Assembly: GCA_947172415.1 (NCBI GenBank)
Contig: OX359192.1
Location: forward strand, 2,544,501-2,608,500
Length of the DNA: 64,000 nucleotides
Direction: 5' to 3'
From: Chondrosia reniformis
Taxonomy: Eukaryota; Porifera; Demospongiae; Chondrillida; Chondrillidae
Below, piece by piece: positions 2,266 to 58,906 of the stretch. The notes under the pieces are model-generated. The model was given only the letters and a program-made list of their open reading frames with translations, was not told the origin of the DNA and ran no database searches. The translations under genes and the position numbers were made by a program. How positions within the stretch are numbered: the first letter of the stretch is position 1; each line of letters begins with the position of its first letter.

Positions 2266-5200
2266 TTACAAGTTCATGTAAGTTGGTTTGTCTTCAGTCT
2301 GATTCATCTCAATAGATACATAAGCAGGGTTCCTCTCCATGTCAACAGATAACGTATCATATTCATTCACTGTTTTATCTTGAAAGGAATAAATTAAATA
2401 TATAAGCCATGTAATGCTATTTCACTGATAGATATGCATTCTACGTATAACAGTTCAATACCATACCTTGCTGTTGGCTCCTCTTACATCTGATCCAGCA
2501 ACATCGACAAGTAACGACAATCACCACAATGATTATCACCGTGAAGACTATACATCCAATACATAGACCTACTATTGGACCAAATACAATCCAACCACTT
2601 GCTACGAGTAAAGATTCTAAACAGATGTACAGTGTATATAGAAGAAGAAAGTGTTTATAAAATAAACATAAAATTTCATTCTAATTATAAATCAACTAAA
2701 ATTTCACTCTTCCTAAGTGTACATGATGTTTAGTAGGTAATAGAAGATGTATGGAAATATTTGGATCCTCTTACATACATACTTACTTAGTTTATTGGAG
2801 CTATCGGCAACAAAATTGAGCTATAGATTGAACATTTCGACCCGTAGGTCTTCATCAGCCAGTAATGAGGAATTGGATTACAGAGTTGATTAAAATAGAG
2901 GAAAGATGACAGGAGTTGAAAAATTGAATAAGATAAAAAAATTTCAACTCCTGTCACCTTTCCTCTATTTAAACCAACTCTGTAATCCTATTCTTCATTA
3001 CTGCTGATGAAGACCTACGGGTCAAAACGTTCAATCTAGCTCAATTTTGTTGCTGATAGCTCCAATAAACTTATTTTTAGGGGCTGCCTATGGCAGCCCC
3101 TTATATTGTTTTCATTTGCCGATTACATTGTACGGCTTCATGTTACGGAAAGATATATATATATATATACAGTGCAAGTTACAATATACTAAGGTAATCT
3201 AATATAATATAATATAATATAAATAATATAATTAATTAATTCATATGGCTCCAAGAAAGAATCTAAAAACAAAATGGGCATATCATCATAAAGTGTAGGG
3301 TATAAAACTCATTTTAAATTAAGGGATTTTTTATTTAGGTCTCCGTTTGTTAGAAAAAGGAGGACAAAGTTTGCATATAAAAAGCCATAGGACTATAGAA
3401 AACCTATGGGAAATTTATATGCAAACCATGTGTTATATTGATAAAAATTTTCAGTTTGTCAGATAACTGTGAAATCAACATATATCATGGTACATGTGTA
3501 TAAGAAATGTCTGGCGAAGTTTTGCTTAATTAAATGAGCAAAATAATCAAGATATAATGAAGAATTCAAAGTTACGATTGCGCAAGCTGGTGATGTATTG
3601 TGATGTTCTTCTATTGCGTCACCAATACCTTCGTATGTCGCTCGGTACACACATTTCGTTGCTAAAGAAGATCATCCTTTCGAGAATGGCTATGACAAGT
3701 CGACGCTCTCCTACGAGAAGGAGCTACCGAATAAGCGAGTTATAGCAAAGGTTAGATAAAGCGTATTTGTATACGTTCATGCTAAGTTTAAGCCAAAAGT
3801 GTTGCTATATATATTGATGTAAAGAAATAAAAGAAATTCGTTTAGACGACAATAGTAAAACTGTGGTACTTTAAGCTCCGTCATCTCTTCTTATGTTTTC
3901 TATTACATATCCATGTGTGTACGTGTGCAGGAGTGTAATTGGATACGATATATATATATATATATAATTGTCCATGTGTAGGAATAAGGAGTGTTATATA
4001 TTATGCATGTTTAAATACAATCAAGTACTACACAGTGCAAGTTACACATTTATACACGGATGCAAGTGACTCCCAAGATAATCACACTGAGGTATATAAT
4101 ATAATACGGATGCAAATGACTCCCAAAATAATCACAATCAGGTATAGTAAACGCTACAAGACTTTAGCCACACTGAAATTCTCAACTTCTGCATACAGAG
4201 TAGTAGTCTCTACATATCATATAAGGTTAAATACATGGCCTTCCAATTACCTTTTCACACCTAAGTATAGACTGAAGATGATGCATCTGCATGCCATTAT
4301 CAGCAAAAATTCCAGTCTCATGCAGGGGGTCTCAGCCAATAATCACCGCAGATTTGACTTGCCTTGAGTGTGAGCTAGGAGTACATTTGGTTGCTTGCAT
4401 GCATTCACATAAACAACAGGGTTAGAGACGATTTGGTAACTTGCACACAAGGGACATTGTTCATGAAATAAATTAAAGGCCCCAGCCTTTATGTCCCTGT
4501 GTGCAAGTTACCAAATCGTCTCTAACCCTGTTGTTTATGTGAATGCATGCAAGCAACCAACGGTACTCCTAGCTCACACTGAAGGCAAGTCAAATCCGGG
4601 GTGATTATTGGCTGAGACCCCCTACATGAGACTGGAATTTTTGCTGATAATGGCATGCAGTTGCATCATCTTCAGTCTATACTAAGGTGTGAAAAGGTAA
4701 TTGGAAGGCCATGTGTTTAACATTATATGATCTGTAGAGACTACTACTCTGTATGCAGAAGTTGAGAATTTCAGTGTGGCTAAAGTCTTGTAGCGTTTAA
4801 TTATATACCTGATTGTGATTATTTTGGGAGTCATTTCCATCTATATTATATTATCTACCTCAGTGTGATTATCTTGGGAGTCACTTGCATCCGTGTATAA
4901 ATTTGTAACTTGCACTGTGTAGTACTTGATTGTATTTAAACATGCATAACATATATATATATATACGTATCCAATTACACTCCTGCATAAGTACGTACAC
5001 ACATCGATAGGTAAAAATATTAACAGAAAACAAGAGAAGAGATAACGGAGCTTACAGTACCAAAGTTTTACTACGGTCGTCTAAATGAATTTATTTTATC
5101 TATTTTACATTTACATCAATATATATAGCAACAATTCTGGCTTAAACTTAACATGAACGTATACAAATACGCTTTATCTAACCTTCGCTACAACTCGCTT

Positions 5201-8200
5201 ATTCCGTAGCTCCTTCTCGTAGGAGAGCGTCGCCTTGTCATAGCCGTTCACGAAAGGGATGATCTTCTTTAGCAACGAGGCGGTGACGTTTACGCAACGT
5301 CACAAGATTCACTAAATGTTTACGGAGCGACATACAAGAGGTGTTGGTGACGCACTAGAGAAACATCATAATACATCATCAGATTGTGCAATCGTAACCT
5401 TGAATTCTTCATTATTATCTTGATTATTTTGCTCATTTAATTAAGCAAAACTTCGCCAGACGTTTCCTATGCACATGTACCATAACATATGTTGGTTTGA
5501 CAGTTATCTGACAAATTGAAAATTTTTATTAATATAACACGTGGTTTGAATATAAATTTTCCATAGGTTTTCTATAGTCCTAAGTCCTTTTATATGCAGA
5601 TTTTGTCCTCCGTTTTCTAACAAACGGAGGCCTAAATAAGAAATCCCTTAATTTAAAACGAGTTTTATACCCTATACTTTATGATGATATGCCCATTTAG
5701 TTTCTGAATCCTTTCTTGGAGCCATATGAATTATTACATTATATTATTTAGATTACCTTAGTGTATTGTAACTTGCACTGTATATAATACGGGTTCATAC
5801 GCAACTATTATAACACTTATTTTATACGTTGATATATGTATAATACGAGTTCATACGCAACTATTGTAACACTTAATTTATACGTCAATACATCGTTTTT
5901 GCAAATGGCGGCGTTCAGGAAACTTCAGGAAACTTCAGGAAACTCACGAAGCTTTTCCATCGTTATTTATAAAGTTCAGGACACTTAAGCGTCCTCAATC
6001 GTTAGTATTACGAATATATATATTAAATCCCAACGATGCGGCCAAGTAGTTCGAGTTAATTCGGGGCGGCAGCCCCACGAGTTTTTAAACTCGAACTACT
6101 TGTTTTCCTAATGAACGCAACTAAAATTACCCCCTATCACTTCATACTTACTCAGGAATGCTCTATAATAACTTGAAGTTGCATTAATTTACCTATATAT
6201 GGTTATAAAAGTGAATACACTATTGAAGGTTTGATACACTTACGTGCTTCAGTTGTGGTACTTCTATTTGTTATTTCACTTCTAATATTTGAGTCTTCTT
6301 CACAATAAGCCACAACTCCAATCTCATAAGATGTACCAGGAGTAAGACCTTCAATAGTATAGGATGTTTCAGTAGTGGTTGTATTCCTCAAACTAGATTC
6401 ATCTCCACTCTGTTGCCATGTTACCTCATACTTGGAGGTACAGTTCTCAAAACACTCATCACTGTGGGACCACATCAGGGAGATACTTATATCAGAAGGG
6501 GTGGATGTGAGTGAGGTTGGAGGAAGGAGAGACTCTGAAGGAATGCCAACTATTGTTACGTATATTAACACTAACTATATAACAGAAATATCCAATGTCT
6601 TACTCACCCCTAACTCTCACAGTCACTGGATCACTCTCCTCCATACTACCATCAGCATACACAACAGCACAAGAGTAGTTAGCCTCTCCATTGAGAAAGA
6701 CACTCTTTCTTGTTGTCACACTCACAACTATTTCTGTGTTACTCTGGGATACAACCATATGGTATGTATCAGGTAGATCAATCCTCTCTCCATTGTTCAT
6801 CCACACTACAGGACTGGTCTGACTGAAGATGGGTCCACTTGATGTAGTATCAGTTATATCATGATGGTGACAGGTGAGTTGGGCTTGTCTGTCAAAACAG
6901 ACTGGACCAGTTAAATTGAAAGTGATGGGTTTTTCTACAAACATACGTATATTAATGGTAATAATATTATTATCAACAAAACTCTTTTCATAATTGTGTA
7001 TTCACTAGGGCGAGCCTTAGCAAGCGGAAAGGAGAGGACTGCAGGAGGACTGTGAAGTAGGAGAGAGTTCACTGATCAATTGCTTTCATTATTAACTTAA
7101 TTAAAAAATTATATTAATTAAAAAATATTAATTAAAACTGGGTGTGCTATGACAGTTTAGTACGTATGCATGTGTATTGAAGTAAGGATATGTGCACAAA
7201 GGATAGATAAGGTTGGTGTAAAACTGTTGCAACTACGTATACATACAAAGACAAATGCAAAGACCTGCCCCACAATACATTGCATTTATTGGTTTATGTT
7301 GACAAAGGTATGTGTCAGGTATAAATAAACTAATGAAACATCACCTTCACCATGCAATCCTCAATTCCAATATATTATCTTTTCCAAACTAACATTTCTC
7401 ATAATAGCATACAGTACGTAAACACTTTATTACAATACACCAACCCTTACCAACAGTCATAGAATTCATTGACAATGGATCACTAACAACATCTTCATTT
7501 TCAACGCATTCAGCAGTTATGTTAACTTTATAGCTCATATCACTCATCAATCCATCTATTATTACAGTACTATTGGAGAAGGAACCATTCTGTAGTTGTG
7601 TCTCATCAGGGACTCCATTGATCACAGGATACCAGATTACATGATATTGGAAAGTGTGATGAGAATAACATTCCATATTTGGATTGTGTTCCACTTTATA
7701 TACAAGAACATTAGATTTAGGTTGTATTGCAACTACATTTGGAGATGGAACCTCTACATGGAGTAATGAAGTTTCAATTATATATATTTATAAAGTAGTA
7801 CTTATTAAAATAATTTATAAGACAAAGGAATATACATTAATCATTACTGTTTTCACTTTAACTGATTTCAATGCAATATTTTGAAATATTACACAGTTCA
7901 ATTTTAGTGATAATTTAAAAGTATGCCTTCAATACAATTGAAATTGAAACATTAACATAATAAATAATAGGATCCTCATCCTATAGCTACAGTAATACAC
8001 ATATTTCACTTACCAACTGTATTAATCATAACCTCTCTACTGTAATCTCTAACTGATGTGTCAAGATTTCGAGTGTAACATCTGTAGATCCACACTTCAT
8101 CTGCAAAGTCATCTTTAGTTAGATGAATATTTAGTGTAGTGTAGGTTGGTTCAACATCAGTTAGACTATGTATTCCAGCAAATCTAGTCAGTCTCGTTCC

Positions 8201-8682
8201 ATTTCTCTCCCAAAGTATCACAAGTGATCCATCATTAAAAGGATGAGTACATGTCAACCTTGATGTCTGACCAAGACAGTGCCGGTCATTATTGGAAGTG
8301 AGAGTTACAGCAGCATCACCTACAGAATATGCATATCAATATTGAATTGCGTGTAGTGTATAAGTGATATGTATGTATATATATGTATTACCTACATGTA
8401 TCTGTAGTATATACACGATGTTTAATTAGCAATTCATTGGAATTTTACATTATACTGAGAATGTGTCATTTATACGTACCTTTAAATAATTGTCCAAAAT
8501 GGAAATGCATAATTAAAATACAGTATATATAATTCAATATTGTAAAAAATTTTATTTGCAAATAGCATTTCCCTCATTTTGGAAACTATGTTCTTCTAGT
8601 TTGAAGCATAAAAGGTTCAATAGTAAATAAAACACTCACCTGATGTGTTAATACACATCAGAATAAACAGCACAATCCTCAT
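2266..8682 (-). CDS. Receptor A: Ig/FN3 transmembrane protein with ITAM-like tail
   Basis: Seven exons on the minus strand give an open protein of about 505 residues: signal peptide 8640-8682 (MRIVLFILMCINTS), Ig1 8014-8319, FN3-like 7451-7753, Ig2 6608-6934, FN3 6244-6534, TM 2467-2601 and tail 2266-2378. All junctions are GT-AG and phase 1, and the summed length is a multiple of three. Ig1 and Ig2 carry the LTC...C pair plus an extra N-terminal Cys; the FN3 has the YEVTW and TSYTIEGLTPGTSYEI signatures. The TM segment is followed by a CRCCW motif and basic residues. The tail contains YDTL, YVSI and YMNL, spaced 9 and 10 residues apart, which fits a relaxed ITAM. Intron 5 carries a 3.36 kb transposon-rich insertion that is absent from paralogue C. 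Probable cell-surface recognition receptor; ligand unknown. The start is the only ATG before a hydrophobic stretch. Confidence 0.85.
2788..3075. mobile_element. Foldback element with hammerhead-like cores, in receptor A intron
   Basis: Arms of about 130 bp are reverse complements around 2930. Each arm contains the block CTGATGAAGACCTACGGGTC followed by GAAA (minus strand, 2835-2858) or AAAA (plus strand, 3004-3028). It forms the left part of the insertion in receptor A intron 5. Confidence 0.7.
3165..5781. mobile_element. 2.6 kb near-perfect palindrome (foldback element)
   Basis: The sequence CAGTGCAAGTTACAATA at about 3171 recurs inverted at 5765-5781, and homology runs inward on both sides to a centre near 4480. 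Each arm is about 1.3 kb, with small indels. ORFs inside the arms (for example 3939-4367) are the same translated repeat found in other copies at 59540-62100 and at 61245, with no known domain, so they are not called as genes. Each arm holds a short frame ending in VAKVR that recurs in other copies. Confidence 0.85.
5782..6145. repeat. Short direct repeats flanking the palindrome
   Basis: A unit of about 65 bp containing GTTCATACGCAACTATT occurs twice (5784-5890). It is followed by three copies of GGAAACTTCA (5930-5955), and then a small inverted repeat at 6054-6112 whose arms read AAGTAGTTCGAGTT. The same small inverted repeat recurs at 62170-62238. This is the right part of the insertion in receptor A intron 5. 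Confidence 0.6.
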
Positions 8683-20170: not shown

Positions 20171-20174
20171 TACA

Positions 20175-23786: not shown

Positions 23787-23834
23787 CTGCATGTTCAGAT
23801 ATTTAATGGCCACTTATTAAACTGCACACTCCAA

Positions 23835-26975: not shown

Positions 26976-29793
26976 TTACAAGTTCATATAAGTCGGTTTA
27001 TCTTCAATCTGATTCATCTCAATAGATACATAAGCAGGGTTCCTCTCCATGTCAACAGATATTGGTGGTCCTTTAGTATCATATTCATTCATTGTTTTAT
27101 CTTGAAAGGAAAACATTAAAATATAAGTCATGTAATGCTATTTCACTGATAGATATATGTATTCTGTAACAGTTCAATACCATACCTTGCTGTTGACTCC
27201 TCTTACATCTGATCCAGCAACATCGACAAGTAACGGCAATCACCACAATGATTATCACTGTGAAGACTATACATCCAATACATAGACCTACTACTGGACC
27301 AAATACAATCCAACCACTTGCTACGAGTAAAGATTTTAAACAGACGTACAGTGTATATAGAAGAAGAAAGTATTCGTAAAATAAAACAAATTTCATTCTA
27401 ATAATAAATCAACTAAAATTTCACTCTTCGTAAGTGTACATGATGTTAAGTAGCTAATAGAAGATGTATGGATCCTCTTATATACATACTTACTTAGGAA
27501 TGCTCTATAACTTGAAGTTGCATTAATTTACCTAATATAAAGTGAATACACTATTGAAGGTTTGATACACTTACGTGTTTCAGTTGTGGCACTTTTATTT
27601 GTTATTTCACTTCTAATATTTGGATCTTCCTTACAATAAGCTCCAACTCCAATCTCATAAGATGCACTAGGAGTAAGATCTTCAATAATATAGGATGTAT
27701 CAGTAGTGGTTGTATTCCTCAAACTAGATCCATCTCCACTCTGTTGCCATGTTACCTCATACATGAAGATACAGTTCTCAAAACACTCATCACTGTGGGA
27801 CCACATCAGGGAGATACTTGTATCAGAGGGGGTGGATGTGAGTAAGGTTGGAGGAAGGGGAGACTTTGAAGGAATGCCAACTATTGTCATATTAACTTTA
27901 ACTGTAACAGAAATATTCAATGTCTTACTCACCTCTAACTCTCACAGTCACTGGATTACTCTTCTCCATACTATCATCAGCATACACAACAGCACAAGAG
28001 TAGTTAGCCTCTCCATTGAGGAAGACACTCTTTCTTGTTGTCACACTCACAACTGTTTCGGTGTTACTCTGGGATACAGCCATATAGTATGTGTCAGGTA
28101 GATCAATCCTCTCTCTATCCTTCATCCACACTACAGGACTTGTCTTATTGAAGATTGGTCCACTTGATGTACTATCAGTTATATCATGATGGTGACAGGT
28201 GAGTTGGACTTGTCTGTCATAACAGACTGGACCAGCAATTGAAAGGGAAGTAATAGGTGCTTCTATGTAAAAAATAACCATGTACAAGTATATACAAAGT
28301 TGATATACGTATATACGTAGGTATACAATTAAAGCTTATAAGTATTATGCAGAATTAAATAATATGTGGTCTCAATCTAAAATTAGTCATCTTATAACAC
28401 TATTTAATTAGAATACAAAGCAAAATGGTGACCTAGCTACTTACCAATAGTGTTAATGGTCACTGACAGTGGATCACTAACAACATCTTTATTTCCAACA
28501 CTTGCTATAATTAGGTGGACTCCATATACTGTATTACTCATCAATCCATCTATTATCACTTTATCATTCAAAGAGAAGGTAGCATTATTCTGTTGTGATA
28601 CTCCATTATAAACTGGTCTCCACATAACAAGATATTGAAAAGTGTTGCTAGGGTAACATTCCATATATGGAGTGTGTTCCAATGAGCACTCTATACTATT
28701 TGCTTTTGGTTGTATCCTTATTATATTGGGAGGTGTGATCTCTATAGTAAAGATAAATTAATTAATTATAGCCATGATTCTTTCGATTCCAACCGAATAG
28801 TTAGCATTCAATAATTACTATTATCAATACTAACCCTAACCCTAACCCTAATGTTTAACAGCCAACCTACAGTACAGTGCATAAAAAAGGTTACGATACA
28901 GAATCGTTCTGAAAAAAAACTCAGTGATGAAAGGTGTGTGTAGGCGGATTCCAATCCCGGTTACGTAGTATAGGTGATCTATGCCAATATACTATTCTAT
29001 ACGTCTGGATATTAGTATACAAACTTTGATATTCGTAATCGTAACAATCTCAGGTGTGATTTTTGACTCAAGTTTATTAATTAATTGTGTGTACGTAGAT
29101 ATATTGAAATTTCTAACTTTCATGATAAGAAAGTTTCATTTCAAGTTACAATGGAATATATATTTTCCATAATGTTAGTCATTCATAACGTTATGTGAAA
29201 GTGAAATATCCAATAAAAAGAATGTACATCTACATGCTATGATACAGAATCAATAATTAAATTCTTGATTTCTACGTACATATCAAATATAAAGGATAAA
29301 TGCTACGTATACGTATACGTATATATAAGCATACTCACTTGGTGGATCTACAGTAACTTCATTACTTATAACTCTGTCTGGATCATTGAAACCAACATTA
29401 CCATCATAAGTAAAACATCTATAAGTGTACACTTTATTCTCAAACTCTTCTCTGGTCACAGTGATAGTCAGAGCAGTGACAGTTGGAGTAGGATCATCAT
29501 CAACATGATTAGGAGTAGACTGAGGATTAAATCCAGTTTTATTTCTCTCCCATCTGACATTAGTATCAGCATCAAGTACAGGATGTGTACATGTTAACTT
29601 GTAGATCTGACCAAAACAAGGAGGACTTGATGGAGCTGTGAGTGTAACACTAGCTTCACCTTTAATGATATGATTATATAAATTGGCTTAATGTTTTGGG
29701 TTTTGTAAATTTATATATAACTGTTCTGTTATCTGAATATATAAACAACTCACTATCTTGAAGTAGGAAGAATAGGACCCACATTATTAACAT
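26976..29793 (-). CDS. Receptor C: Ig/FN3 transmembrane protein, A-type tail
   Basis: Exons: signal 29754-29793 (MLIMWVLFFLLQD), Ig1 29339-29659, FN3-like 28445-28741, Ig2 27933-28262, FN3 27575-27865, TM 27186-27320 and tail 26976-27100. The lengths sum to a multiple of three, giving about 512 residues. Ig1 resembles receptor D (SPPCFGQIYKLTCTHPVLD), while the TM and tail resemble receptor A. The tail has YVSI and YMNL 10 residues apart, but the first motif of A is changed to YDTK because C carries four extra codons (GPPI region). The FN3 exon has lost its canonical acceptor: the site homologous to CAG in A, B and D reads CAA, and the next AG is two bases later and out of frame. The exon may be skipped (both flanks are phase 1, so skipping keeps the frame) or the gene may be damaged. 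Confidence 0.75.
28833..28852. repeat. Short interstitial telomere-like repeat
   Basis: Three CTAACC units in the intron between Ig1 and the FN3-like exon of receptor C. Too short to imply a former chromosome end. Confidence 0.6.
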
Positions 29794-30999: not shown

Positions 31000-33900
31000 C
31001 TAACCAATCAGATTTGCAAACATACAAGTTGCAGTGAGGGAAACATTCTGTAATAAAAAGTATAAAATGTTACATATATACACTTCATTTGCCAAAGTGT
31101 ATAGGCAGCCCAAAAAGAAAACAAATCTGTATATTGTCCTTTGTTCAATTGCGTGTGTCTATTTACGTACTCAAATGCATGTTTAGATTTTAGGATTTCA
31201 TATTAGAATTAACCACTGCAAGAATCAGAAACATTTGCCTTGAATGGTTTGATAGCTAACACTGCAAGATATTTAGACATTCACTATTCACTATTCACCA
31301 ATAATTTTAAACAAAGCATTTTTGCTCCTTCAACAGATATAGGGAATATACGTACCTTTCAAATTATACCCTGTGGAAGTAGTAAAACAACCCAAACATA
31401 CACCGTACCTATATAGATGTGAATAATTTACTTTTTATTAGTTTGCTACTCCTTACCAGAACTGCCAAGTAGTTCAAGTATGCTTTTACTTTAATCTTAT
31501 CCAGAGCTGGGAGGGATGAGGTTGAAAAGCTTCCTTTTAGAAAGTATGATGCTTTACCAATTCGTAGAATAAAGAGGTTCTCAAAAAAGGTCTACAAAAT
31601 ACGGCCAGCTTATTAAATAAGCATGCACTGTACATTCTGCCTTATTTAACTAGTATAATAACAGATATACAGTAATGATAGATGTATGTATACAACATGC
31701 AGTTACCTCAGTAGTGCTTGTGCTGAGTTTAATATTTGAGTTGTCCTATGATCATAAACAGGAGGTAGGCATGCATGTCAATGGCTTCAAAATTTGTATA
31801 TAGGTATTGTACGTACGTATATATATACGGATATACGTATGTATGTAATTAGCACTCCCAAGTTAAATTTTCACATTACACATAAAATAACGGGCAAAAA
31901 GTGGAATACTATACGTATCTACCTACCATGTGAGCTACAGCAGGGTCAGCATCAGATCTAAAAGAGACTGTTGAGCATTTAAAACTGCACACTGAAACCT
32001 CTTCTTCCTCATCACCAGTTGTGGGACTAATTAACCTCACACCAAATGTTGGTACACACATATCAAAGCAATGATTGAGCTGCATTTTACACTACAATAA
32101 TAAGAAACATATCAAAAACATCATCCACGTAGACACTACAAATCTACCTATAGCCAATGTATGTACGTAAAAACCAGTTAAGTCAACACAGATTTACATG
32201 CAGTGATTACATACTGGAAAAAGCTGCTCATGATCAGAGGATTCAAATTGATTTGTCTCTTGAGTAGGTGAAACTGTTACATCAAGTTTCTTAGTACCAA
32301 CCAACTACACAAAGATAGGATAATATACAACACATTAAACAATAAAATTATTACAATGCAAGTTAAAAAATACCATAGCCATCTATTCTAATATAATTAA
32401 TTCATATGGCTCCAAGAAAGGACCTAGAAACAGAATGGGCATATTATCATGAAGTTCAGGGTATAAAACTGATATGTATTAGGCATCAGATTCACTTTCT
32501 TGGAAGTGATGGCATCAGAATTACTGTTGTGGGAAGTGCTGAGTATAGGAAGCCTGCTAAAGGCAGTCTTCCTGTTTTAATAATAATCAGATGCAACAAC
32601 CAATAAACAACATTGGAAATAAATAAGTTACATAATGAAACATCTTACTGTTGTTTCCTCATATGCTCTTCCACCAGCCTACATTGGTAGACAAATGAGA
32701 AACATCTGATTGAGTGATACGTATGTATGTATTGTATAATGCTATATTCCTTCAGCATATTATGAATGTGATATATTTCAGAAGTAGGAACTACATGCAT
32801 ATGAACATGTCACAGACACGTACCCTAAATTCAGCATCTGAGGCGGACATCTACATATAAGAAGAGAAAATGATTAAATTATAATCAAAACACATCATGT
32901 ATGTACATGGCTCAGTGGAGTAAGAAAGGAAAGGTCATACTCTGTATACAGTAATGTAGCTAATCTAAGGACCTATAAGACAGCTTTGGAACAGGATACA
33001 GTTCATACCAACCGCCTTACAAAAGGATAATGTTCCCCTTAACTCACTTCAAGCCTGCTAGTTTGGTTATTTACCATCTAAATACAAAGGTAGAAATAAT
33101 ATCATTTTGATGTTATGACGCACACTGTATGACTAAAACATTTCAAGAGTACATCATCACATATGTATAGCGGTACAGTACATATCTTATCATTTTAGAA
33201 TTTTTTGGATTGATATATCATACTTCTGATTTGGCATCCTCAAATGCAACTTCTTTAGAAGCTTTCTTAATCTCTGCATACTTGCCATCTCCCAAGTTAG
33301 GGTTAGGTTGGTGTCTAGGGTTTTCCCCTTTAGAGTGATCTACTGTCACATATTGTCCTTTGATCTGAGCAGAGTCAAAAGGTCAAACACTGTAATAACA
33401 ACACCCACCTTTGAGATGGTTCATCTTTTAGTCTTTTAAAAGTGTCTAGGGACGCAGTTGGGTCTTATAGAACTCTAACATTTTGACCCTGGGGGTCTTC
33501 TTAGACTAAACGTTGAACCATCTCAAATATAAGTTTGGGGTAGTTAGAAGAAATCCCCATCATGTACCAACAACACCTGATGAATACGTATTAGAAATCA
33601 GGGTTTCATCCAGAAATGTTTGTAAGGGGTGCAAAAATTGACTTTTGAATTTTTGCAGGGGTGGTGTCATACCTTGATAAAATAGTTAAGTGGCAACCTA
33701 AATCCAAGGGGGGAGGCAACTCTTCAGCAAGAGGGCGAATGCCCCACCTCCCCTCCTGCTGAATGAAACCCTGGAAATACAATATGTAGGCTCACTACAC
33801 ACATACCTCATGTCTCTTATCACCATCTCCAATGTCACCAGTAGACGCTACTTCCTTAGCAGACTTGACTTCATCATAATTCCCATCTCCATAGATTTTG

Positions 33901-35728
33901 TTGGGAATGTGTCTTGGCTTGGCTCCTTTGCTGTGATCCACTTCAACATAGTTACACTGTACCATATGAAACATTACATAATTAAATATCAACCATTAGT
34001 TAATACAAGCTCATTAGATTTGTATTGACAAAATAGTTTCATGATTGTTTCTTTATACATACGTACCTTTTCTTGGGACTGACTAGTAGGATGGTCAGAA
34101 GCAATAACTGGTTCACCTCCATCTTCAGGTAGGTTATTATCAAGTTCCACTGGAACTATTACTTGAGTATACTTCTCTGTGACAACTTCCGCTTGATTCA
34201 TAGTCATTTCCCTGTTTCCATTCTTCCATCTTTTAGATGTTACTTTCCCAAATAACTGTCTCATCTTACGTCTAAATCTTGGTACCATGATACAGACAAC
34301 AGCCAATATAACTACTATGAGGACCACTAACACTACTAGTAATGCAATGGGTACTCCAACTGCCACTCCATTGACTACTGGACCTGAAGGAGGAACTACA
34401 TAACACAAAGTAATTGATTAACAACACTTTATAACTGTTCTCATTTTCTACATTGTGAACACTTACGAGTCTTAGTTGTGGTCCTTCTATTTGTTATTTC
34501 ACTTCTAATATTTGGATCTTCCTTACAATATGCTCCAACTCCAATCTCATGAGATGTACCAGGAGTAGGACCTTCAATAGTATAGGATGTTTCAGTAGTG
34601 GTTGTATTCCTCCAACTAGATCCATCTCCACTCTCTTGCCATGTTACCTCAAACATGAAGGTACAGTTCTCAAAACACTCATCACTGTGGGACCACATCA
34701 GGGAGATACTTGTATCAGAGGGGGTGGATGTGAGTAAGGTTGGAGGAAGGGAAGACTCTGAATAAACAGTAACGGTGTATAAATTAAGTGATTTAGTTAC
34801 GTATACATATACAGAGAAGTATTATATTTGATGCATTCATACTATTTTATATGACAGTTTATATATAGTTTGTATACATGTCTCTAACTCTCAGTCACGG
34901 GTTCACTCCATATACTACCATGCACCAGCATACACAACAGCACAGTTAGCCTCTCCATTAATTGAGGAAGACACTCTTTCTTGTTGTCACACTCAAAACT
35001 GTCTCAGTACAATGTAATATTTTAATATTTTCACAATTGAACATTTCTACTTTGGGGCCTTCACCGACACATACACTGATAAGGAGAGGATTACAAGCCC
35101 TTCAAATAGAGAATATGTTGAGTGATAATGTATTGTGAAAGAGGTGGCAAATAATTAATGAAGATGTAAATAAAACAAGCAAATGTCTTTCCAAATGATT
35201 TGTAATCATTTCCTCATTGTACGGAGAAGCTCCCTAGGTTAAAGCACCCAAAATTTGTACATGTACTGTTGATCGATCTAGGCTCACTTATTCATATACA
35301 GTTATATACGTAGATAATTGAACAGTTAATTGTTGTTGCTACATATACTGTTACAATGGCAAGACCTACACTACATATACAAATGTTTTCAACATATACA
35401 TACTCACCAGGTGGATCTACAGTAACTTCATTACTGATGACTCTATTTGGATCATTGAAACCAACATTACCATCATAAGTAAAACATATGAAAGTGTAGA
35501 CTGTATTGTTAAACTCTTCTCTGGTCACATTGATAGTCAGAGTAGTAGCAGTTGAAGCATGGCGATCTTCATGATGAGTGGTACTAGCTGAAGGACCAAA
35601 TCCAATTCCATTTCTCTCCCATCTAACAAGTGTATCAGTATCAAGTACAGGATGTGTACAGGTTAACTTGTAGGTTTGACCAAAACAAGGAAGACTTGAT
35701 GGAGCCATGAGTGTAACAGTAGCTTCAC
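31000..35728 (-). CDS. Receptor D: Ig/FN3 protein with full-length modular tail, 5' end missing
   Basis: Exons on the minus strand: Ig1 35408-35728 (PCFGQTYKLTCTHPVLD), FN3 34467-34757, TM and juxtamembrane 34067-34395, then phase-0 tail exons 33807-33956, 33224-33364, 33048-33077, 32824-32850, 32649-32678, 32215-32304, 31927-32091, 31707-31745, 31457-31591 and 31000-31047 (stop). Every tail exon is open, phase 0 and flanked by GT-AG, so this is the reference copy of the long tail (about 280 residues beyond the TM exon). Tyrosine motifs are YTQV, YVEV, YDEV, YVTV, YAEI and AYEE. As in B, GTATGA at 33223 could act as donor or stop. The FN3-like exon is missing and Ig2 survives only as a relic (34885-35012). 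No signal-peptide exon is found before repeats begin near 36010, so the gene is probably 5'-truncated or relies on a distant exon. Confidence 0.7.
33410..33775. mobile_element. Receptor D copies of the two intronic elements
   Basis: Foldback element 33410-33545 and CAGGGTTTCAT MITE 33595-33775, in the same intron and relative orientation as in receptor B. They date the insertions before the inverted B/D duplication. Confidence 0.65.
34885..35012 (-). pseudogene. Relic Ig2 exon of receptor D
   Basis: Minus-strand sequence matches the 3' part of the Ig2 exon of A, B and C (region encoding TRKSVFLNGEANYSCAVVYA) but has internal deletions, an inserted TTAATTGA and no acceptor. It is not translatable. 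Confidence 0.75.
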
Positions 35729-40570: not shown

Positions 40571-40571
40571 G

Positions 40572-42696: not shown

Positions 42697-44296
42697 TTAT
42701 TTTTTGACCTTTTGTACTTCAGTGTATATAACTGGTTGAATCTCTACCGGAGGCTTTCTTCTTCTTTGATCTTCTTCTGGAAATTTCAAATCTGCATACA
42801 ATATCCCCTAAATGTACAAATATATATACAGTACTAGTGTGAAAGTGTGCAAATCACCTGACCACTTAGATAATATGAGATAAGTGAACATCTAATTAGA
42901 TAACATACATAGATAAGTGAGGAGAGATAACAAGTGATATTGCACAATAAAGGATACAGAGAATTTTATTCAAGCAAGATACTGAATGATGCAATGTAAC
43001 CCTTAAGACTATATTATTGAAGTATTGAGAAATCCACTTTAGGCAATTTCATTAATAATGATATCTTGAATATCAGATGTACAGTACATCCACCTACCCC
43101 CAGGTGTGTATATAGGTAATTACTAGTGAACTTGTGTTAAGCTAATATATATACACATATTCACTGAACTACTATACTAAGGGATATAGTGCACTTGTGT
43201 CAGGAGGAGGGGGTGGGACTGTGGGTGTGTTTGTGTACATTCCACTGTATCCAGTACAACAATTTGTAAATTTTTGAAATTGTGTTGACACCAAGCAGGT
43301 GTGTAATTATTAAACTAGCTGACAGGGTTTACCCCATTATGAAGTGAAATATATTAAACAAGAAGTTACCTAATACCCCACCACCCCATACAGGGGATAC
43401 CCTCTACACTTGATATATAAAGAGAAGAGGAGAGAAGAGAAGAGACTGAGGAGCTCATGTGTATACTTTGAGTGTCTCTGTATGCCTTATATGGAAGACA
43501 AGTATTGAAAGAAGAAAGACTGTTGGAGAAGATGATAAACTGAGACATGCACAAGTAGTGGCTATCTACTACAAGTATTGCTATTTGAGAGTCTCAAGGA
43601 TATAGCAGAGATTATAAACAAGAGACCATATATGGACATACAGGATATACCTATACCACCTATAACTACCAGAGATCGACTGACATACCACTTAAGTGAG
43701 TAGAATGTACTAGTAATAGAGTTAGTTATTTGGTATGGATACAGTATAATGAAATTTATGACATCCCATTAACATGCAGTATTAGCTACATTATACATAT
43801 GTACTAACATTAGCACAATTAGGAGTGAGTACATTAGTATATAGGTACAGTCTATTTGATAGACCGAAACTGGTACAGATTACCTCATATAGAATACATT
43901 CAGTTGCTATGACTACTCGTAATGCAACTGTTCACCTCTCTGGTTGTGTTGGACTTTCTGTCACGTATCACAACAGATTCAACTGGTATAGTTCTCTTCT
44001 CCTCATTGAGCTGGTTGTCACTGTTTGAGTTTCCATTTGATTCAGTTGGCCGATCACGAATAACTACTGCATACATTGACTCTATCGGCTTCTGCTCGCT
44101 TTCAGTTGTGAAATGAACATCATCATTACTGAAGGGTTAAAAGAGAGTAGTTCTGTAAGAGTGAATATTGAGAGAAGCTTGTTTGTGTAAATCTGTATGT
44201 ATGAATGTTCACTACCACTGCTGATGATGCACTTTTAAGGAGTTGGGAAAGTAAAACAAATTCCTATATAGGTTTGAAGGCAAGCCTATTTAATCA

Positions 44297-44335
<39 letters not shown>

Positions 44336-46804
44336 ATTCTTTTCTCCTTTCTTCATTAGCTTTATTCTACTTACTCCTTTTTCAGTTCTGTGTATGAAAA
44401 GATGTTGCAAGTGTAAAGATGTCATATAACAATATCATAATATTGCAATTGAAGTTGCACTAACCATTCTTCCTCCTCCGGAGGTAAAAAAGTACAATAA
44501 TCAGTATCATTAAGATGAGGAGGAGAATTACTACAATCACTCCTACAATAGCTCCAATGATAGCTAGTGTTGTATCTTCAGACACATGATCGGAATTAGC
44601 TGTATACATATACATGTATAATGACCATTTATAAAATAAAGTCATTAATATTTAATTGAGAAGAATGTTCTACTAAATTAATTAATATTATACGTAGGAA
44701 CTTACATGGTAAATGAGTCACACTTAATTCCAACTGAAATGGAGTACTCTCCCCAACACTGTTCATAGCACTCACATTAATGTTATAAGTCTCTCCAATA
44801 GTCACTGTAAGATCTCAGATGAGCTGAGAGAAAGGTCATGTTGAAACTATAGTTTCCTCCAGAAATCTCCACCTGTCAACATTTAAAGTTACATCAACAA
44901 ATTTTATATATTCATTGCCTACGTTCTGTACTCACAGTATAGCTAGTAACATTCTGTCCTCCATCAGTCAGCAGTACAACATCCACTGATAGAATAGTCA
45001 GTGAGAGTGCTTCAACTGATACACTCTCAATAATAGGAACTACATAACAGACAAATACTCATATACCTCACTATACACTACATGGAACTACATCTCACAT
45101 ACCTGAGTCAGGTGTAGTAAAGGTACTGGCTGCTGGAGGACTCACTCCATATTCATTCTCAGCTACTATTTCCACTCCATATTGAGTGCTGTGTTGAAGG
45201 TTAGTCAGTGACAGAGTAGTCACATTTGATGTAGTGAATGAGAGAGTGACAGTGTTGTTGATGTGATGTTGATGGAGTACTTGAGTGGTTGATCAGTTCC
45301 TCCATTATCGGATGGTGGGCTCCAACTGATAGTAGCTGAGAATGGACTTACATCTTCAAATGTGATATTATGTGGAGCAGACGGTGGAGCTATGGAATCA
45401 TATTAATCGATTAACATTGCTATTTCTGTATCACCTCAATCAACTCACCTAACACATTCAAGTGTGTTGCTATGGTAACACTTCCTGCTTCATTAGTCAC
45501 TGTACAAGTGTAGTTTCCACTATCTTTACTTCTATTCAGAGAAGAGACAGTTAAGATGGATCCATTCACTCCTTCTGTGATCTCCACTCCATCTCTCTCA
45601 AACACATAACTACTAGGTGGAGGGTTGGCAGCTGATGGAGTACAGTTGAATGTGAATACCTCTGTAAAAACAACATTCTGCACTTTAGAGTGTACAGCAA
45701 ATTCTGGGAAATCTATCAAAATAGGAAAATGTATTGTATACTTTTAATATAGAATACAAAGAATACTAACTCACAGTACACATCCAAGTTGACAACAGCT
45801 GTATCACTTCCTGCTGTAGTAGTCACATTTACTGTAGTAGTCACATTTACTGTGTAAGATCCACTGTCAGTACGATTAACATTTTCTATTGTAAAGCTAG
45901 ATGTTCCATTACCAGATCCAATATTAACAGTAATCCTGCCATCTTGTACAGTAACTTCATCTTTAGTTATAACAATATTACTACTCACTGGAAATGGATT
46001 ACCAGTTATAGTTAGAGGAGTAGTGAAGGATGTTCCTTCTATAGCAGTCTCGTTTGTGATGGGTGGAGTGATGGATGGAGGAACTATATATAGGAAATGC
46101 CAAGGAGGCAAATAAAGAGGACAGTAAACTTACTTGACCATATATACGTGTATACACCATTAATGTTATATAGCACGGTTCGGCTATATAACAAACTGAT
46201 GTGATAACTCACAAATAACATTTAGAATTATGTCAGGAGAACATTGAGTTAGCAAGGCAAAGTTACATCTCAATCTACTTCCATTGTTATCTCTAGTCAC
46301 TGGTCCAAATGTGTACATCACTCCATTTTCTATAGACATACGCCTTATCATGTCACTGAAAGCAGTGTTTCCATCTAATTGAAGCACAATAGCATCACCA
46401 GTGGGGTCATCCACAGTGGACCCTGTATAGCTGCAAGTAAGTGATAATTCATGCCCTACATTTATTTTAACGGTTCCATTTGGACTTATCTTTTGACACA
46501 GAGTACCTGATGGGAATTAAGTATAAATATACGTGCTTCAATAACCAGCTAGAGATCACAATTTAACAATAGACAGTATCTTTTATTTGACTTAAGATTC
46601 TTGATAAACGTGCGAGAAGTTGCATAAACAATGTACAGATGAAGAATTTTACTTTTTGGGAGTAAGGGCATTTTGACTGCAATAAGTTTATAAAAGTGGA
46701 ACTACAACCATTTTGCTCGAATTTCAGATATAATCAAATTGTCAATCATATTGAATACCTGAAGTTAACATAACGAACAGGACTGGTAATAAATGACACC
46801 TCAT
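42697..46804 (-). pseudogene. Receptor E: three-Ig, two-FN3 receptor with triple ITIM-type tail; ectodomain frameshifted
   Basis: Exons: signal 46759-46804 (MRCHLLPVLFVMLTS), Ig1 46213-46506, Ig2 45775-46083, Ig3 45449-45712, FN3a 45103-45389, FN3b 44936-45039 and 44706-44872, TM 44465-44599, mini-exon 44375-44387, tail 43936-44128 and last exon 42697-42807. Ig3 has the classic DSGNYTC; Ig2 has DSGSYTV with no cysteines. Against G, FN3a has two extra bases leading to a stop, and the second FN3b exon lacks 20 bases, so the reference sequence cannot make the whole protein. Tail exons remain open and join perfectly in phase. They carry SMYAVV, ILYADL and VIYTEV, all fitting the ITIM form [SIVL]xYxx[IVL], the last two 25 residues apart. 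Ig2 has an 18-bp tandem duplication (VNVTTT twice). Confidence 0.75.
44300..44333. repeat. (TC)n microsatellite
   Basis: Pure CT dinucleotide run in the intron before the receptor E tail; a shorter version is at 55246-55270 in the paralogous position. Confidence 0.9.
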
Positions 46805-50905: not shown

Positions 50906-50924
50906 CAACAAATTTTATCTTTTA

Positions 50925-53021: not shown

Positions 53022-55554
53022 TTATTTTTTGACCTTTTGTACTTCAGTGTATATAACTGGTTGAATCTCTACCGGAGGCTTTCTTCTTCTTCTTTGATCT
53101 TCTTCTGGAAATTTCAAATCTGCATACAATATCTCCTAAATGTACAATACATGCATATACAGTACTAGTGTGAAAGTGTGTTAACCACCCTACCACTTAG
53201 ATAATATGAGATAAGTAAACATCTAATAGATAACAGATAAGTGAGGAGAGATAAAAAGTGATATTGCACAATAAAGGATACAGAGAATGGTCCATATATA
53301 TACACGTATACGTACGTATATACACATATTCACTGAACTACTATACTAAGGGAATATTTGACTGCATTATATGCACTTGTGTCAGGAGGAGGGGTGGGAC
53401 TGTGTGGGGGTGTGTTTGCACTCTATGAAGCACAAGTGTGTTTGTATACATTCCACTGTATCCAGTACAACAATTGTAAATTCTTGAAATTTGTGTTGAC
53501 ACCAAGCAGGTGTGCAATTATTAAACTAGATGACAGGGTTTACCCCATTATGAAGTGAAATATATTAAACATAAAGTAAGTTAGTCCAATACCACTCCAT
53601 ACAGGGATACCCTCTACACTTGATATATAAAGGGATACCCTCTACACTGCACTTGATATATAAAGGGATACCCTCTACACTTGATATATAAAGGGATACC
53701 CTCTACACTTGATATAGAGAACAATAAAAATTTTCTACAAAAATAGTGAAGATGTAGGGAAGGCACAAAAAGCATAGAAACAAGAAAGGGATGTTACACA
53801 GTGAAGCATTAGCTATATATGCACGAATCATACAACACCCTTGCTTGTAGGATTCATGCATAGCTAATGCTTCACTGTGTAACATCCCTTTCTTGTTTCT
53901 ATGCTTTTTGTGCCATCCCTACATCTTCACTATTTTTGTAGAAAATTTTTATTGTTCTCTAGTTTCTGTACTTTTTATGGAGCATAAGCTAGGAATTCGT
54001 TGTATTTTAAACCACTTTGGTTTCGCAATCTTCGACTGATTATGACGTCATTAAAATGGCGAATTTATTGAGGTCTTGACTCTTGAGCCATGAAAACTGT
54101 CATACTCAATAATAGCGTTATCGCTCTCGCTTCTACAAAAGAATACAGCTCGGAAAATTTAGAGTAATTTCGATTAAGAAGTAGTCCGAAGGCTTATTTC
54201 GTTTTTTAGTTACAGCGGGCGAAGAAGATGAAGAAGGAGATGAAGAAGATGAAGAAGAAGAAAACGAAAATGGGAGATTTCAAAGTTCGTTCGTTTGCCA
54301 ACGATACACGGTCGCTTGCCTTCAAGGCCAATTTATAGCATGTTTGTTCTATATTCAACTCTACATAGTCTCGTTTTGGCGATTTTCAGCCTAATTCGGA
54401 ATTTCGCTCCTATACCAATGTATGGGGAAAACGAAACAACCCGTACCATCCCTACATAGAGAGTACTACCGTACTCTCTGATATAAAGAGGAGACTGAAG
54501 AGCTCACATGTGTAGTGTATACTTCGTCTCTGTATGCCTTATATGGAAGACAAGTATAGAAAGAAGAAAGACTGTTTGAGAGGATGACAATCTCATTTTG
54601 CTAGGGAATGTGACCAATATACCACTTAAGTGAGTAGAATGTACTAGTAGCTAATAGAATAGTATATGTCCATATTCGGTGTGGATGCAGTACTAGTATA
54701 ATAAAATATTATGAAATTTGTGAGATCCCATTAACAATATTAGCTACATTATATGTACACACATTAGCACAATTAGGAGTGAGTACATTAGTATATATGT
54801 ACAGTCTATTTGATAGACCGAAACTGGTACAGATCACCTCATGCATATAGAACATATTCACTTGCTATGACTACTCGTAATGCAACTGTTCACCTCTCTG
54901 GTTGTGTTGGACTTTCTGTCACGTATCACATCAGCGTACATTGACTCAACTGGTTTAGTTCTCTTCACCTCATTGAGTTGGTTGTCACTGTTTGAGTTTC
55001 CATTTGATTCAGTTGGCTGATTGTGAATAGCTATTGACTCTATCGGCTTCTGCTCGCTTTCAGTTGTGAAATGAACATCATCATTACTGAAGGGTTAAAA
55101 GAGAGTAGTTCTGTAAGAGTGAATATAGAGAGAAGCTTGTTTGTGTGAATCTGTATGTATAAATGTTCACTGCCACTGTTGATGATGCATTTTTAAGGAG
55201 TTGGGAAAATAAAAGGCAAGCCACAGTCTGAAGACTTATTTAATCACTCTCTCTCTCTCTCTCTCTCTCTAATAATTCTTTTCTCATTCTTCATTAGCTT
55301 TATTCTACTTACTCCTATTTCATTTCTGTGTATGAAAAGATGTTGCAAGTGTAAAGATGTCATAGAATCAACATTCTAATTATATAACAGTATCAGATTG
55401 CAATTGAAGTTGCACTAACCATTCTTCCTCCTCCGGAGGTAACAAAGTACAATAATCAGTATCATTAAGATGAGGAGGAGAATTACTATAATCACTCCTA
55501 CAATAGCTCCAATGATAGCTAGTGTTGTATCTTCAGACACATGATCGGAATTAG
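53022..55554 (-). pseudogene. Second (E-type) TM and tail set downstream of receptor G
   Basis: TM exon 55420-55554 (SEDTTLAIIGAIVGVIVVI), mini-exon 55313-55325, tail exon 54894-55086 and last exon 53022-53135 (ILYADL, VIYTEV) mirror receptor E. The mini-exon has an in-frame TAG, which would cut the tail right after the membrane. The tail exon has lost the first tyrosine motif of E but has SMYADV at the second position. It could be an alternative 3' end of receptor G or a remnant of an E-like gene. A hairpin-tipped MITE (53720-54482) is inserted between the last two exons. Confidence 0.6.
53720..54482 (-). mobile_element. Hairpin-tipped MITE, third copy
   Basis: Almost identical to 40572-41350. 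The paralogous segment at 43410-43425 lacks it, showing an insertion at a TATA-type target (flanks CTTGATATA and GATATAAAG). Confidence 0.8.
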
Positions 55555-55788
55555 CTGTATACATATACACGTATAATGACCATTGTAATATACAAATATA
55601 TAACCATCTTCACTACGTATATAAAAAAATAAAGTCATTAATTTTTAATTGAGAAGAATGTTCTACTAAATTAACACTTAAAATAATAAACTATAAGTAG
55701 GAACTCTCTCAAAAAGGTACAAATTATGGATTATTTATACTTTTAACTGAAAAATATACACAATTATGTTCAATTTAGTTTACAATAA

Positions 55789-58700
55789 TTATGGTGTCTC
55801 ATAAGTATTATGTGCAGTGTCAGCCATTTTATTGCCTTGGTAACCTTTGCTCTCAATTACTTCAGAAGGCACAGCATAAGCAGGATTACACAACATATCA
55901 ATTTGTTTCATTTCAATCTCTTCATATGAAACATGCTGTGAATTGCAATTGGTAGGAACATCTAAAGTATAAAATGTAGTTCATTTAGTTCTTCATAGGA
56001 AAATAGTAGTGTCATTGAGCCTCATTGCTACGTATAGTACCTATAGCAGGAAAACTAATAATAATAGCAATACACTTAAGTAAATTTCTCACTGATCACT
56101 TTATGTAGCAGTTCGCTCCAGTATATTACATGTACAGCTGATGAAGATTATTCTGTATTGTTATTATTATTACTAATTTTCCTGCTGTTAATCCTCAAAA
56201 GTTCACAATCTAATGTATAGCTAGCGCTGAACTGATTATATATCATCACATCATATACGTACATACATATATATAATACTAACCACTTTTCTTCTTGTGA
56301 TAGTAAAATACAATTATCAGTATGATAGAGATGAGTAGGAAACTTATAACAACTACTCCAACAATTCCTCCAACAATTGCTTGTACCAGTGTATCTTCAG
56401 ACACAGACCTGGAATTAGCTGCACATAAAATATGTATTTACTTATAAGTTATATTTATAATTCATCTTATGCATCAAATAATTTCAATATATTTACGTAT
56501 AAGCTTTAAAACAATTCAAAAAGTAATTCAAGGTAGGAACTTACAGACACAGAAATAGCTACACATGATATATTACAATTCATCTTAATAATCTATTATA
56601 AAAATACATCATAACGATCGAGATTAATTAAAAAATAAAGTCCATAAATTTTTAAAACAGAAAAATGTTCTACTAAATGAACACAATAATAAACTTACAT
56701 GGTAAATGAGTCACACTTAATTCCAACTGAAATGGAGTACTCTCCCCAACACTGTTCATAGCACTCACATTAATGTTATAAGTCTCTCCAATAGTTAATA
56801 TATCTACTAACATGACACTGTAAGATCTCAGATGAGCTGAAAGAAAGGTCATGTTAAAACTACAGTATCCTCCAGAAATCTCCACCTGTCAACATTTTAG
56901 GAACATTTACATAAACAAAATTTAATTGTATAATTTTTATATATTATACATATATATACATATGTAACTGAAATTCACATTCATTGCCTACGTAATGTAC
57001 TCACAGTATAGTTAGTAACATTCTGTCCTCCGTCAGTCAGTAGTACTACATCCACTGATAGAATAGTCAGTGAGAGTGCTTCAACTGATACACTCTCAAT
57101 AATAGGAACTACATAACAGACAAATACTCATATACCTCACTATACACTACATGGAACTACATCTCACATACCTGAGTCAGGTGTAGTAAAGGTACTGGCT
57201 GCTGGAGGACTCACTCCATATTCATTCTCAGCTACTATTTCCACTCCATATTGAGTGCTGTGTTGAAGGTTAGTCAGTGACAGAGTAGTCACATCTGATG
57301 TAGTGAAGGAGAGAGTGACAGTGTTGTTTGTGATGGTGATGGAGTAGTTCAGTGGTTGACCAGTTCCTCCATTATCGGATGGAGGGATCCAACTGATAGT
57401 AGCTGAGAATGGACTTACATCTTCAAATGTGATATTATGTGGAGCAGACGGTGGAGCTATGGAATTATAAATTATAAATTAACACATTAATAAACTTACA
57501 TGGTAAATGAGATGGAATTATATTAATCGATTAACATTGTTATTTCTGCATCACCTCAACCAACTCACCTAACACATTCAAGTATGTTGCTATGGTAACA
57601 CTTCCTGCTTCATTAGTCACCATACAAGTGTAGTTTCCACTATCTTCACTTCTATTAAGAGTAAAGACAGTTAAGATGGATCCATTCACTCCTTCTGTAA
57701 TCTCAACTCCATCTCTCTCAAACACATAACTACTAGGTGGAGGGTTGGCAGCTGATGGAGTACAGTTGAATGTGAATACTTCTGTAAAAACAACATTCTG
57801 CACTTTAGAGTGTACAGCAAATTCTGGGGCATCTATCAAAATAGGAAAATGTATTGTATACTTTTAATATAGAATACAAAGAATACAAACTCACAGTACA
57901 CATCCAAGTTGACAACAACTGTATCACTTCCTGCTGTAGTAGTCACATTTACTGTGTAAGATCCACTGTCAGTACGATTAACATTTTGTATTGTAAAGCT
58001 AGATGCTCCATTACCAGATCCAATATTAACAGTAATCCTGCCATCTTGCACAGTAACTTCATCTTTAGTTATAACAATATTACTACTCACTGGAAATGGA
58101 TTACCAGTTATAGTTAGAGGAGTAGTGAAGGATGTTCCTTCTATAGCAGTCTCGTTTGTGATGGGTGGAGTGATGGATGGAGGAACTATATATAGGAAAT
58201 GCCAAGGAGGCAAATAAAGAGGACAGTAAACTTACTTGACCATATATACGTGTATACACCATTAATGTTATATAGCACGGTTCGGCTATATAACAAACTG
58301 ATGTGATAACTCACAAATAACATTTAGAATTATGTCAGGAGAACATTGAGTTAGCAAGGCAAAGTTACATCTCAATCTACTTCCATTGTTATCTCTAGTT
58401 ACTGGTCCAAATGTGTACATCACTCCATTTTCTATAGACATACGCCTTATCATGTCACTGAAAGCAGTGTTTCCATCTAATTGAAGCACAATAGCATCAC
58501 CAGTGGGGTCATCCACAGTGGACCCTGTATAGCTGCAAGTAAGTGATAATTCATGCCCTACATTTATTTTAACGGTTCCATTTGGACTTATCTTTTGACA
58601 CAGAGTACCTGATGGGAATTAAGTATAAATATACGTGCTTCAATAACCAGCTAGAGATCACAATTTAACAATAGACAGTATCTTTTATTTGACTTAAGAT

Positions 58701-58906
58701 TCTTGATAAACGTGCGAGAAGTTGCATAAACAATGTACAGATGAAGAATTTTACTTTTTGGGAGTAAGGGCATTTTGACTGCAATAAGTTTATAAAAGTG
58801 GAACTACAACCATTTTGCTCGAATTTCAGATATAATCAAATTGTCAATCATATTGAATACCTGAAGTTAACATAACGAACAGGACTGGTAATAAATGACA
58901 CCTCAT
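55789..58906 (-). CDS. Receptor G: three-Ig, two-FN3 transmembrane receptor with YEEI tail
   Basis: Nine exons, fully open, about 592 residues: signal 58861-58906 (MRCHLLPVLFVMLTS), Ig1 58315-58608, Ig2 57895-58185, Ig3 57569-57832, FN3a 57172-57456, FN3b split as 57005-57108 and 56699-56885, TM 56284-56418 (QAIVGGIVGVVVISFLLISI) and tail 55789-55961. All junctions are GT-AG; phases are 1 except inside FN3b (phase 0). Ig1 has two cysteines (LSLTCSY, RLRCNF) but no obvious Trp. Ig2 lacks cysteines. Ig3 is a standard I-set (DSGNYTCMVTNEAG). The tail has HVSYEEI, which is both ITIM-type and the preferred Src-family SH2 sequence YEEI, then NPAYAVP, GYQGN and TYETP. It is the intact member of the E/F2/G subfamily. 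A second TM/tail set follows downstream. Confidence 0.85.

Follow-up and report, generated by a model that had tools for sequence, protein, structure and literature searches.

Whether sponges possess receptors of the paired type, in which similar ectodomains are joined to contrasting tyrosine-bearing tails, is the question raised by a gene cluster on chromosome 4 of the demosponge Chondrosia reniformis (contig OX359192.1 of assembly GCA_947172415.1). The stretch analyzed, hereafter the window, comprises 64,000 nucleotides (C4:2544501-2608500), and the genome searched comprised 117,379,552 bases in 15 contigs. The window holds seven receptor genes or fragments (A to G) with Ig and FN3 domains, as many as an earlier note on this DNA had set as a minimum, and these fall into two families (family 1, A to D; family 2, E to G). 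The earlier note had read the locus as an early-animal analogue of paired receptors. What stands of that reading, and more strongly than the note had it, is the association of like heads with contrasting tyrosine tails, in a two-by-two mosaic and with tails scattered over the ectodomain tree, but not the opposition of immunoreceptor tyrosine-based activation (ITAM) and inhibition (ITIM) signaling. The paired-receptor reading is plausible: genes of the A/B and C/D types may act like paired receptors, with one ligand and two outcomes, at a locus that would be the satellite of a larger complex, a proposal to which we give close to an even chance.

The evidence that carries this reading comes from exon-by-exon comparison of genes A to D, which form a 2x2 mosaic of distal Ig type and tail type. 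Genes A and B share 94-98% nucleotide identity over five ectodomain exons (signal peptide, SP, 95%; Ig1, 96%; FNa, 98%; Ig2, 96%; FNb, 94%) and 51% over the transmembrane (TM) exon, and their TM and tail are unrelated. Genes A and C match in TM (97%), tail (94%), FNb (92%) and Ig2 (91%), with 70% identity in FNa and 56% in Ig1; genes B and D match in the exon encoding YVEV (97%), FNb (93%) and TM (90%), with 58% identity in Ig1. For C and D, the corresponding values are 84% in Ig1, 93% in FNb and 55% in TM. Both tail types are hence found with each of the two distal Ig types (alpha in A and B, beta in C and D), and the A/B and C/D pairs each show the like heads and unlike tails that characterize paired receptors. 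All four sit in one cluster, with C and D on the same strand and A and B on opposite ones. As the earlier note had proposed, the ectodomain modules are joined in phase 1 in the splice models of all four genes (from ATG in A and B, from Ig1 in C and D); the tails of B and D are encoded by several exons with phase-0 joins. The FNa and Ig2 exons of gene D were not detected at the locus, and a scan for its signal peptide came up empty.

Both tail types also correspond to those previously described, with paired YxxI/L motifs in A and C, which end NPAYVSI..PTYMNL (NPAYVSI-x10-YMNL), and YxxV/I repeats (YVEV, YDEV, YVTV, YAEI) in B and D. A profile of the A-type tail returned 53 genome matches, and the 48 over 60 bits were kept. 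NPAY, the second tyrosine and its +2 asparagine are retained in all 48, which follow the consensus MExNPAY[VI][PS]IEM[SN]QIxxKPTYxNL, and 45 of the 48 have both YxxI and YxxL at x10 spacing, in accordance with the loose but not with the strict spacing of an ITAM (loose, 6-12; usual, 6-8). The five matches dropped include two in which the tyrosine is lost (NPADVQI) and two with a single NPAYACI motif. A chance motif as the origin of the A-type tail is ruled out by this conservation, although its extent is inflated by the matches having been found through similarity to the motif. GRB2 prefers pYxN and PTB domains prefer NPxY, and from its sequence the A/C tail would fit a loose ITAM and, equally, docking through NPxY and pYxN (GRB2-type) sites. 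SHP-2 prefers V, A or T at +1 and a hydrophobic residue at +3, and this part of its preference fits most tyrosines of the YxxV motifs in B and D. A relative on chromosome 1 (L008) carries two strict ITIMs, VQYAAL and VNYAEI, in an exon resembling the D-tail exon (QY..PRHQ.N..YAEIK), and was the single genome match under the query used.

On a tree of Ig2 and FNb from 40 genes, eight of them with YxxV-type tails, those tails do not group together but are dispersed among the ectodomain lineages. They need 8 changes on the tree, against a mean of 7.5 under shuffled labels, and the well-supported branches alone force at least 4; the window clade is poorly resolved. Full tail exons secure four of the eight labels, and a homologous exon assigns a fifth (L008), the weaker ones being L034, typed as D by its TM exon, and L030c and L039, typed by one weak exon each. 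A recount with the five securely typed genes gives 5 changes, or 4 without L008.

Divergence within the family points to different constraints along the receptor. In three subfamilies the distal Ig1 evolves near neutrality and the inner Ig2 is constrained, as estimated from sets chosen by score cut-offs and with similar dS (0.10-0.12). Two of these sets come from an array on chromosome 1, represented by a 190-kb sample (C1:9,280,001-9,470,000). In its plus-strand genes, omega is 1.05 for Ig1 (confidence interval, CI, 0.76-1.55; n=19) and 0.36 for Ig2 (0.19-0.69; n=18), and in its minus-strand genes 0.86 (0.56-1.35; n=9) and 0.37 (0.17-0.69; n=10), respectively; for the alpha genes, the values are 1.02 (0.63-1.77) and 0.43 (0.24-0.80), with n=10 each. 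Within Ig1, loops show a higher pN than strands (0.157 vs 0.096; one-sided p 0.015), with strands taken from the gene B model and mapped onto the beta set. Omega ranges from 0.46 to 0.94 in the FN exons of the array. In the tails, the YxxV exons of four genes yield omega values of 0.41 (CI 0.21-0.90) and 0.46 (CI 0.20-1.02), and the core of the A tail shows pN/pS of 0.24-0.45 in six comparisons among the four main subfamilies and of 0.47-0.84 in four comparisons with a two-copy group; within the array, the omega of the A tail is too imprecise to interpret.

In the mechanism proposed for the paired receptors, the locus would be a small satellite, in part decayed, of a large complex of receptors, and the distal Ig would bind a variable ligand carried by other cells or by microbes. 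Clustering would then lead to phosphorylation of the tail by Src-type kinases. The NPAYxPI-x10-YxNL tail would recruit Syk-type tandem SH2 proteins and/or GRB2-type adaptors, with an activating output, and the YxxV/I-repeat tail and the strict-ITIM relative on chromosome 1 would recruit SHP-2-type SH2 phosphatases, with a damping output, so that genes with a common distal Ig but unlike tails would read one ligand with two outcomes. A search for SH2 kinases and phosphatases, which the earlier note had suggested, located candidates for each partner in the same genome. Joined exons at C6:6,840,280-6,841,885 have SYK as their best PDB match (E 1.7e-55), the alignment running co-linearly through the two SH2s and their linker, and an NCBIfam search with this tandem SH2 gave no match; SH2s at C3:9.113-9.117 Mb match SHP-2 (E 1.5e-65), with adjoining phosphatase fragments; and tandem GRB2-like genes lie at C4:8.85 Mb (E 1.1e-54). 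An earlier Syk candidate at C4:2.93-2.95 Mb was rejected, its kinase exon (L043) lacking, by eye, the tyrosine-kinase signature HRDLAARN and its SH2s matching CSK (E 2.8e-30) about as well as SYK (2.4e-29). SH2 exons and kinase domains are clustered around that position (C4:2.906-2.963 Mb, minus strand), some 300 kb from the window. Elsewhere, many kinase-domain matches at C14 about 0.59-1.14 Mb, in single open frames of about 290-360 aa, make up a kinase gene array, and at least 175 Y_phosphatase exon matches (150 of 531 candidates scored) at C6 about 0.6-3.1 and 6.6-7.0 Mb and C13 about 1.65-1.96 Mb mark an apparent expansion of tyrosine phosphatases. Syk-related proteins have already been reported from sponges (PMC9486129), while a published table assigns Syk to chordates (PMC8662651).

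Several observations weigh against paired signaling. No kinase domain was seen in the Syk-like C6 gene in a kinase search with 134 of 1104 candidates scored. The A-tail spacing of 10 falls outside the usual ITAM range, the invariant NPA and pY+2 asparagine are not demanded by an ITAM, and the B and D motifs (CNYVEV/CKYVEV, GNYDEV, GQYVTV, GKYAEI, EKYTQV) lack the hydrophobic residue at -2 and hence the ITIM form. The D-type exon encoding TM and the first tail segment is loosely constrained (omega 0.82), and in none of the three sets is Ig1 omega significantly above 1; as Ig1 and Ig2 intervals separate only in the plus-strand set (one of three), relaxed constraint may account for the Ig1 values. 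Moreover, the likeness of A and B reaches into their introns (84%, 96% and 92%, with 56% in the short Ig2-FNb intron), so that it may reflect merely a recent duplication, which explains it as well as gene conversion limited to the binding exons. Lastly, a tail could be assigned to 30 Ig1 units of the 190-kb array and is of the A type in every one, and most family members sampled there are therefore not tail-paired. The alternative is a lineage-specific family of receptors for adhesion or docking that form no opposing pairs, in which the A tail would combine an NPxY endocytic or PTB site with a GRB2 site, the YxxV tail would be another adaptor platform, and the mosaic would result from unequal recombination, with pairing unselected. 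NPxY and pYxN sites explain the invariant NPA and asparagine of the 48 strong A tails better than an ITAM does, and the tandem GRB2-like genes, the intronic likeness of A and B, the uniform A tails of the array and the rarity of strict ITIMs under the query used all favor such receptors. The repeated tail changes over the ectodomain tree, the apparent constraint on both window tail types where measurable and the faster evolution of the distal than of the inner Ig speak against them, and we regard this alternative as a real possibility, though somewhat on the improbable side.

The window copies could also be mainly the debris of recent duplication, with the working system on chromosome 1 and none of the genes here signaling. 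The frameshift in E, the stops in G, the two domains missing from D and the repeat within a gene A intron agree with this explanation; genes A, B and C, which read open, have good splice sites and retain the tyrosines of their tails, do not, and we hold it to be improbable. A bacterial or viral origin was discarded after scans with an Ig2 alignment gave no relative among viral and prokaryote contigs, in collections without known sponge genomes.

Family 1 extends well beyond the window, whose cluster is an outlier to the chromosome-1 array. The Ig2 exon of gene A has 123 genome matches at E up to 0.001, many of them at C1 7.7-9.46 Mb; the TM+tail queries gave 86 matches for the A type and 27 for the D type at E up to 1, of which the weak ones may be spurious. 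A tail tally based on 91 of the 123 Ig2 matches assigned 35 to the A type, 9 to the D type and 47 to neither. Thirteen of these 47 were inspected, revealing five NPxY variants (L007, L037, two at L028, and L042) and two D-type/ITIM exons (L008, L039), with no recognized tyrosine tail in the stretch examined at the other six (the second gene of L029, L035, L036, L038, L040, L041). The array sample contains 36 Ig1 matches, 32 of them over 85 bits, and in 29 of these 32 the FN, Ig2 and tail exons come next on the same strand, as judged by the order of the exon matches. All nine minus-strand Ig1 units of the array face a plus-strand Ig1 at 801-903 bp. Among 46 Ig1 domains typed, the alpha type occurs with seven A and three D tails, the beta type with 23 A, one D and one unknown, and the gamma type with nine A and one unknown; one outlier has an ITIM tail.

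Family 2, whose members comprise three Ig units and two of FN3, has 118 exon matches to a tail query and 130 to an Ig/FN3 query genome-wide. Many of them lie at C1:9.69-10.21 Mb and many adjoin the window on C4, so that families 1 and 2 are adjacent on both chromosomes. Six short family-2 tail matches about 142 bp apart (C1:9701103-9701879, minus strand) suggest tandem tail exons. The motifs SMYAVV (E), SMYADV (F) and VSYEEI (F, G) satisfy the ITIM form [SIVL]xYxx[ILV]. Gene E had been credited with three such motifs, but in the supported frame it has SMYAVV as its single tyrosine motif; YSLL-type strings nearby, at about 44.18-44.12 kb, lie in a different frame that ends in a stop, and relative to F an FN3 exon of E has a 2-nt frameshift. 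The YEEI tail attributed to G is present as VSYEEI, and in F as well, yet G has in-frame stops and its tail (VSYEEIEME) ends prematurely. With E and G degraded, the seven window genes are not seven working receptors. In gene F, the first Ig exon exceeds its modeled length (open reading frame 58618-58286), and the two successive TM+tail cassettes (54858-56418, minus strand), with unlike tyrosine motifs, are possibly splicing alternatives. These genes are listed in Table 1 with those of family 1. Gene B possibly has more 3' exons beyond its AYEES exon, and the FNb-TM intron of gene A, 3,627 nt long, contains one of two related inverted repeats. Searches of the window for tRNA and against Rfam returned no matches.

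Table 1. Receptor genes and other features of the window (window positions).
Feature	Position	Strand	Description
Gene A	2266..8682	-	Family 1; 510-aa splice model, open from ATG to stop
Gene A ectodomain exons	8682-8640; 8319-8014; 7753-7451; 6934-6608; 6534-6244	-	SP; Ig1 alpha; FNa; Ig2; FNb
Gene A 3' exons	2616-2467; 2378-2266	-	TM; tail NEYDTL..NPAYVSIEMNQTEDKPTYMNL
Gene B	13016 to about 17230	+	Family 1; splice model open from ATG to stop
Gene B ectodomain exons	13016-13058; 13371-13676; 13932-14234; 14753-15079; 15205-15495	+	SP; Ig1 alpha; FNa; Ig2; FNb
Gene B TM/tail exons	15567-15841; 15952-16101; 16538-16678; 17038-17064; 17204 to about 17230	+	TM; YVEV, YDEV; YVTV, YAEI; tail exon; AYEES
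Gene C	26976..29657	-	Family 1; splice model open from Ig1 to stop
Gene C exons	29657-29339; 28741-28445; 28262-27933; 27901-27575; 27320-27186; 27100-26976	-	Ig1 beta; FN; Ig2; FNb; TM; tail NPAYVSI..PTYMNL
Gene D	32628..35726	-	Family 1; splice model open from Ig1 to stop
Gene D ectodomain exons	35726-35408; 34757-34467	-	Ig1 beta; FNb
Gene D TM/tail exons	about 34383-34067; 33956-33807; 33364-33224; 32850-32824; 32678 to about 32628	-	TM + first tail exon (YTQV); YVEV, YDEV; YVTV, YAEI; tail exon; tail exon
Gene E	43902..46804 (about)	-	Degraded; Ig, Ig, Ig, FN3, split FN3, TM2-type cassette, tail ESMYAVVIRD
Gene F	54858..58906	-	SP, three Ig exons, FN3, split FN3, two TM+tail cassettes
Gene F cassette 1	56418-56284; 55961-55789	-	TM1; tail with VSYEEI, NPAYAVP, GYQGN, TYETP
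Gene F cassette 2	about 55554-55426; about 55115-54858	-	TM2; tail with SMYADV
Gene G	about 47207-49966	+	Degraded; Ig-like pieces, FN3 with stops, split FN3, TM1-type exon at about 49480-49612
Related inverted-repeat elements	3215-5755; 59546-62098
Open frame	23763-24422	+	219 aa, no assigned identity
(AATAAC)n array	50648-50903		About 43 copies; adjoins an extra VSYEEI exon copy at about 50.9-51.0 kb
Minisatellite	62605-63641		34-bp unit, about 24 copies in main block

Structure prediction and profile searches indicate that the distal and inner domains have an Ig fold, which would place them in the immunoglobulin superfamily (IgSF), with structural matches that are weak. The Ig1 model (pLDDT 78.5) has non-IgSF beta-sandwiches as its two best matches and IgSF members from rank 4 (CD22, TM-score 0.69), and the Ig2 model (pLDDT 76.3) has ICAM-1 as its top match (TM-score 0.58). 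In Pfam, FNb scores 47 bits and several family-2 domains are supported, Ig1 (19.5 bits against a cut-off of 21.8) and FNa fall under their cut-offs, and a search with Ig2 gave no match; profiles of the Ig1 and Ig2 sets reach Ig entries in PDB at about E 1e-4.

Taken at its broadest, the sequence evidence could indicate a sponge immune or allorecognition complex of two adjacent IgSF/FN3 families, at C1 about 7.7-10.2 Mb and with a mini-copy on chromosome 4, in which variable distal Igs would be coupled to activating (Syk/GRB2-type) or damping (SHP-2-type) tails. This wider proposal is rather doubtful; if true, such a complex would take paired-receptor logic back to sponges. The family yields candidate genes for sponge self/non-self recognition, together with SH2 proteins and defined phosphopeptides for binding tests. 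The literature searched, whose coverage is partial, contained no account of a receptor family of this kind in a sponge. Sponge aggregation factors are also candidate sponge recognition genes; to our knowledge, they do not belong to the IgSF or have the transmembrane form and tyrosine tails of the receptors described here. They are named as the usual sponge allorecognition candidate, and ITIM and ITAM/hemITAM-type motifs are reported for the candidates of Botryllus and Hydractinia (PMC12065747). Hydractinia Alr and Botryllus fuhc resemble the sponge genes as invertebrate IgSF families in one genomic complex with immunoreceptor-like tyrosine tails, but genetics ties them to allorecognition, a role that would be putative for the sponge family. 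The vertebrate paired receptors (CEACAM, SIGLEC, KIR, SIRP) likewise combine clustered genes and similar Ig ectodomains with unlike tyrosine tails, and the paired CEACAM genes of Xenopus are reported to have common binding domains, gene conversion and an opposite orientation, the last as in A and B (PMC5112662). The sponge ectodomain differs in its Ig1-FN-Ig2-FN order and the window tails are not canonical ITAMs or ITIMs; the likeness seen is one of layout. Should these pairs prove functional, the combination of common heads with opposing tails, known in vertebrates and, with motifs of the ITIM/ITAM type, reported from allorecognition loci of ascidians and cnidarians, would extend to sponges.

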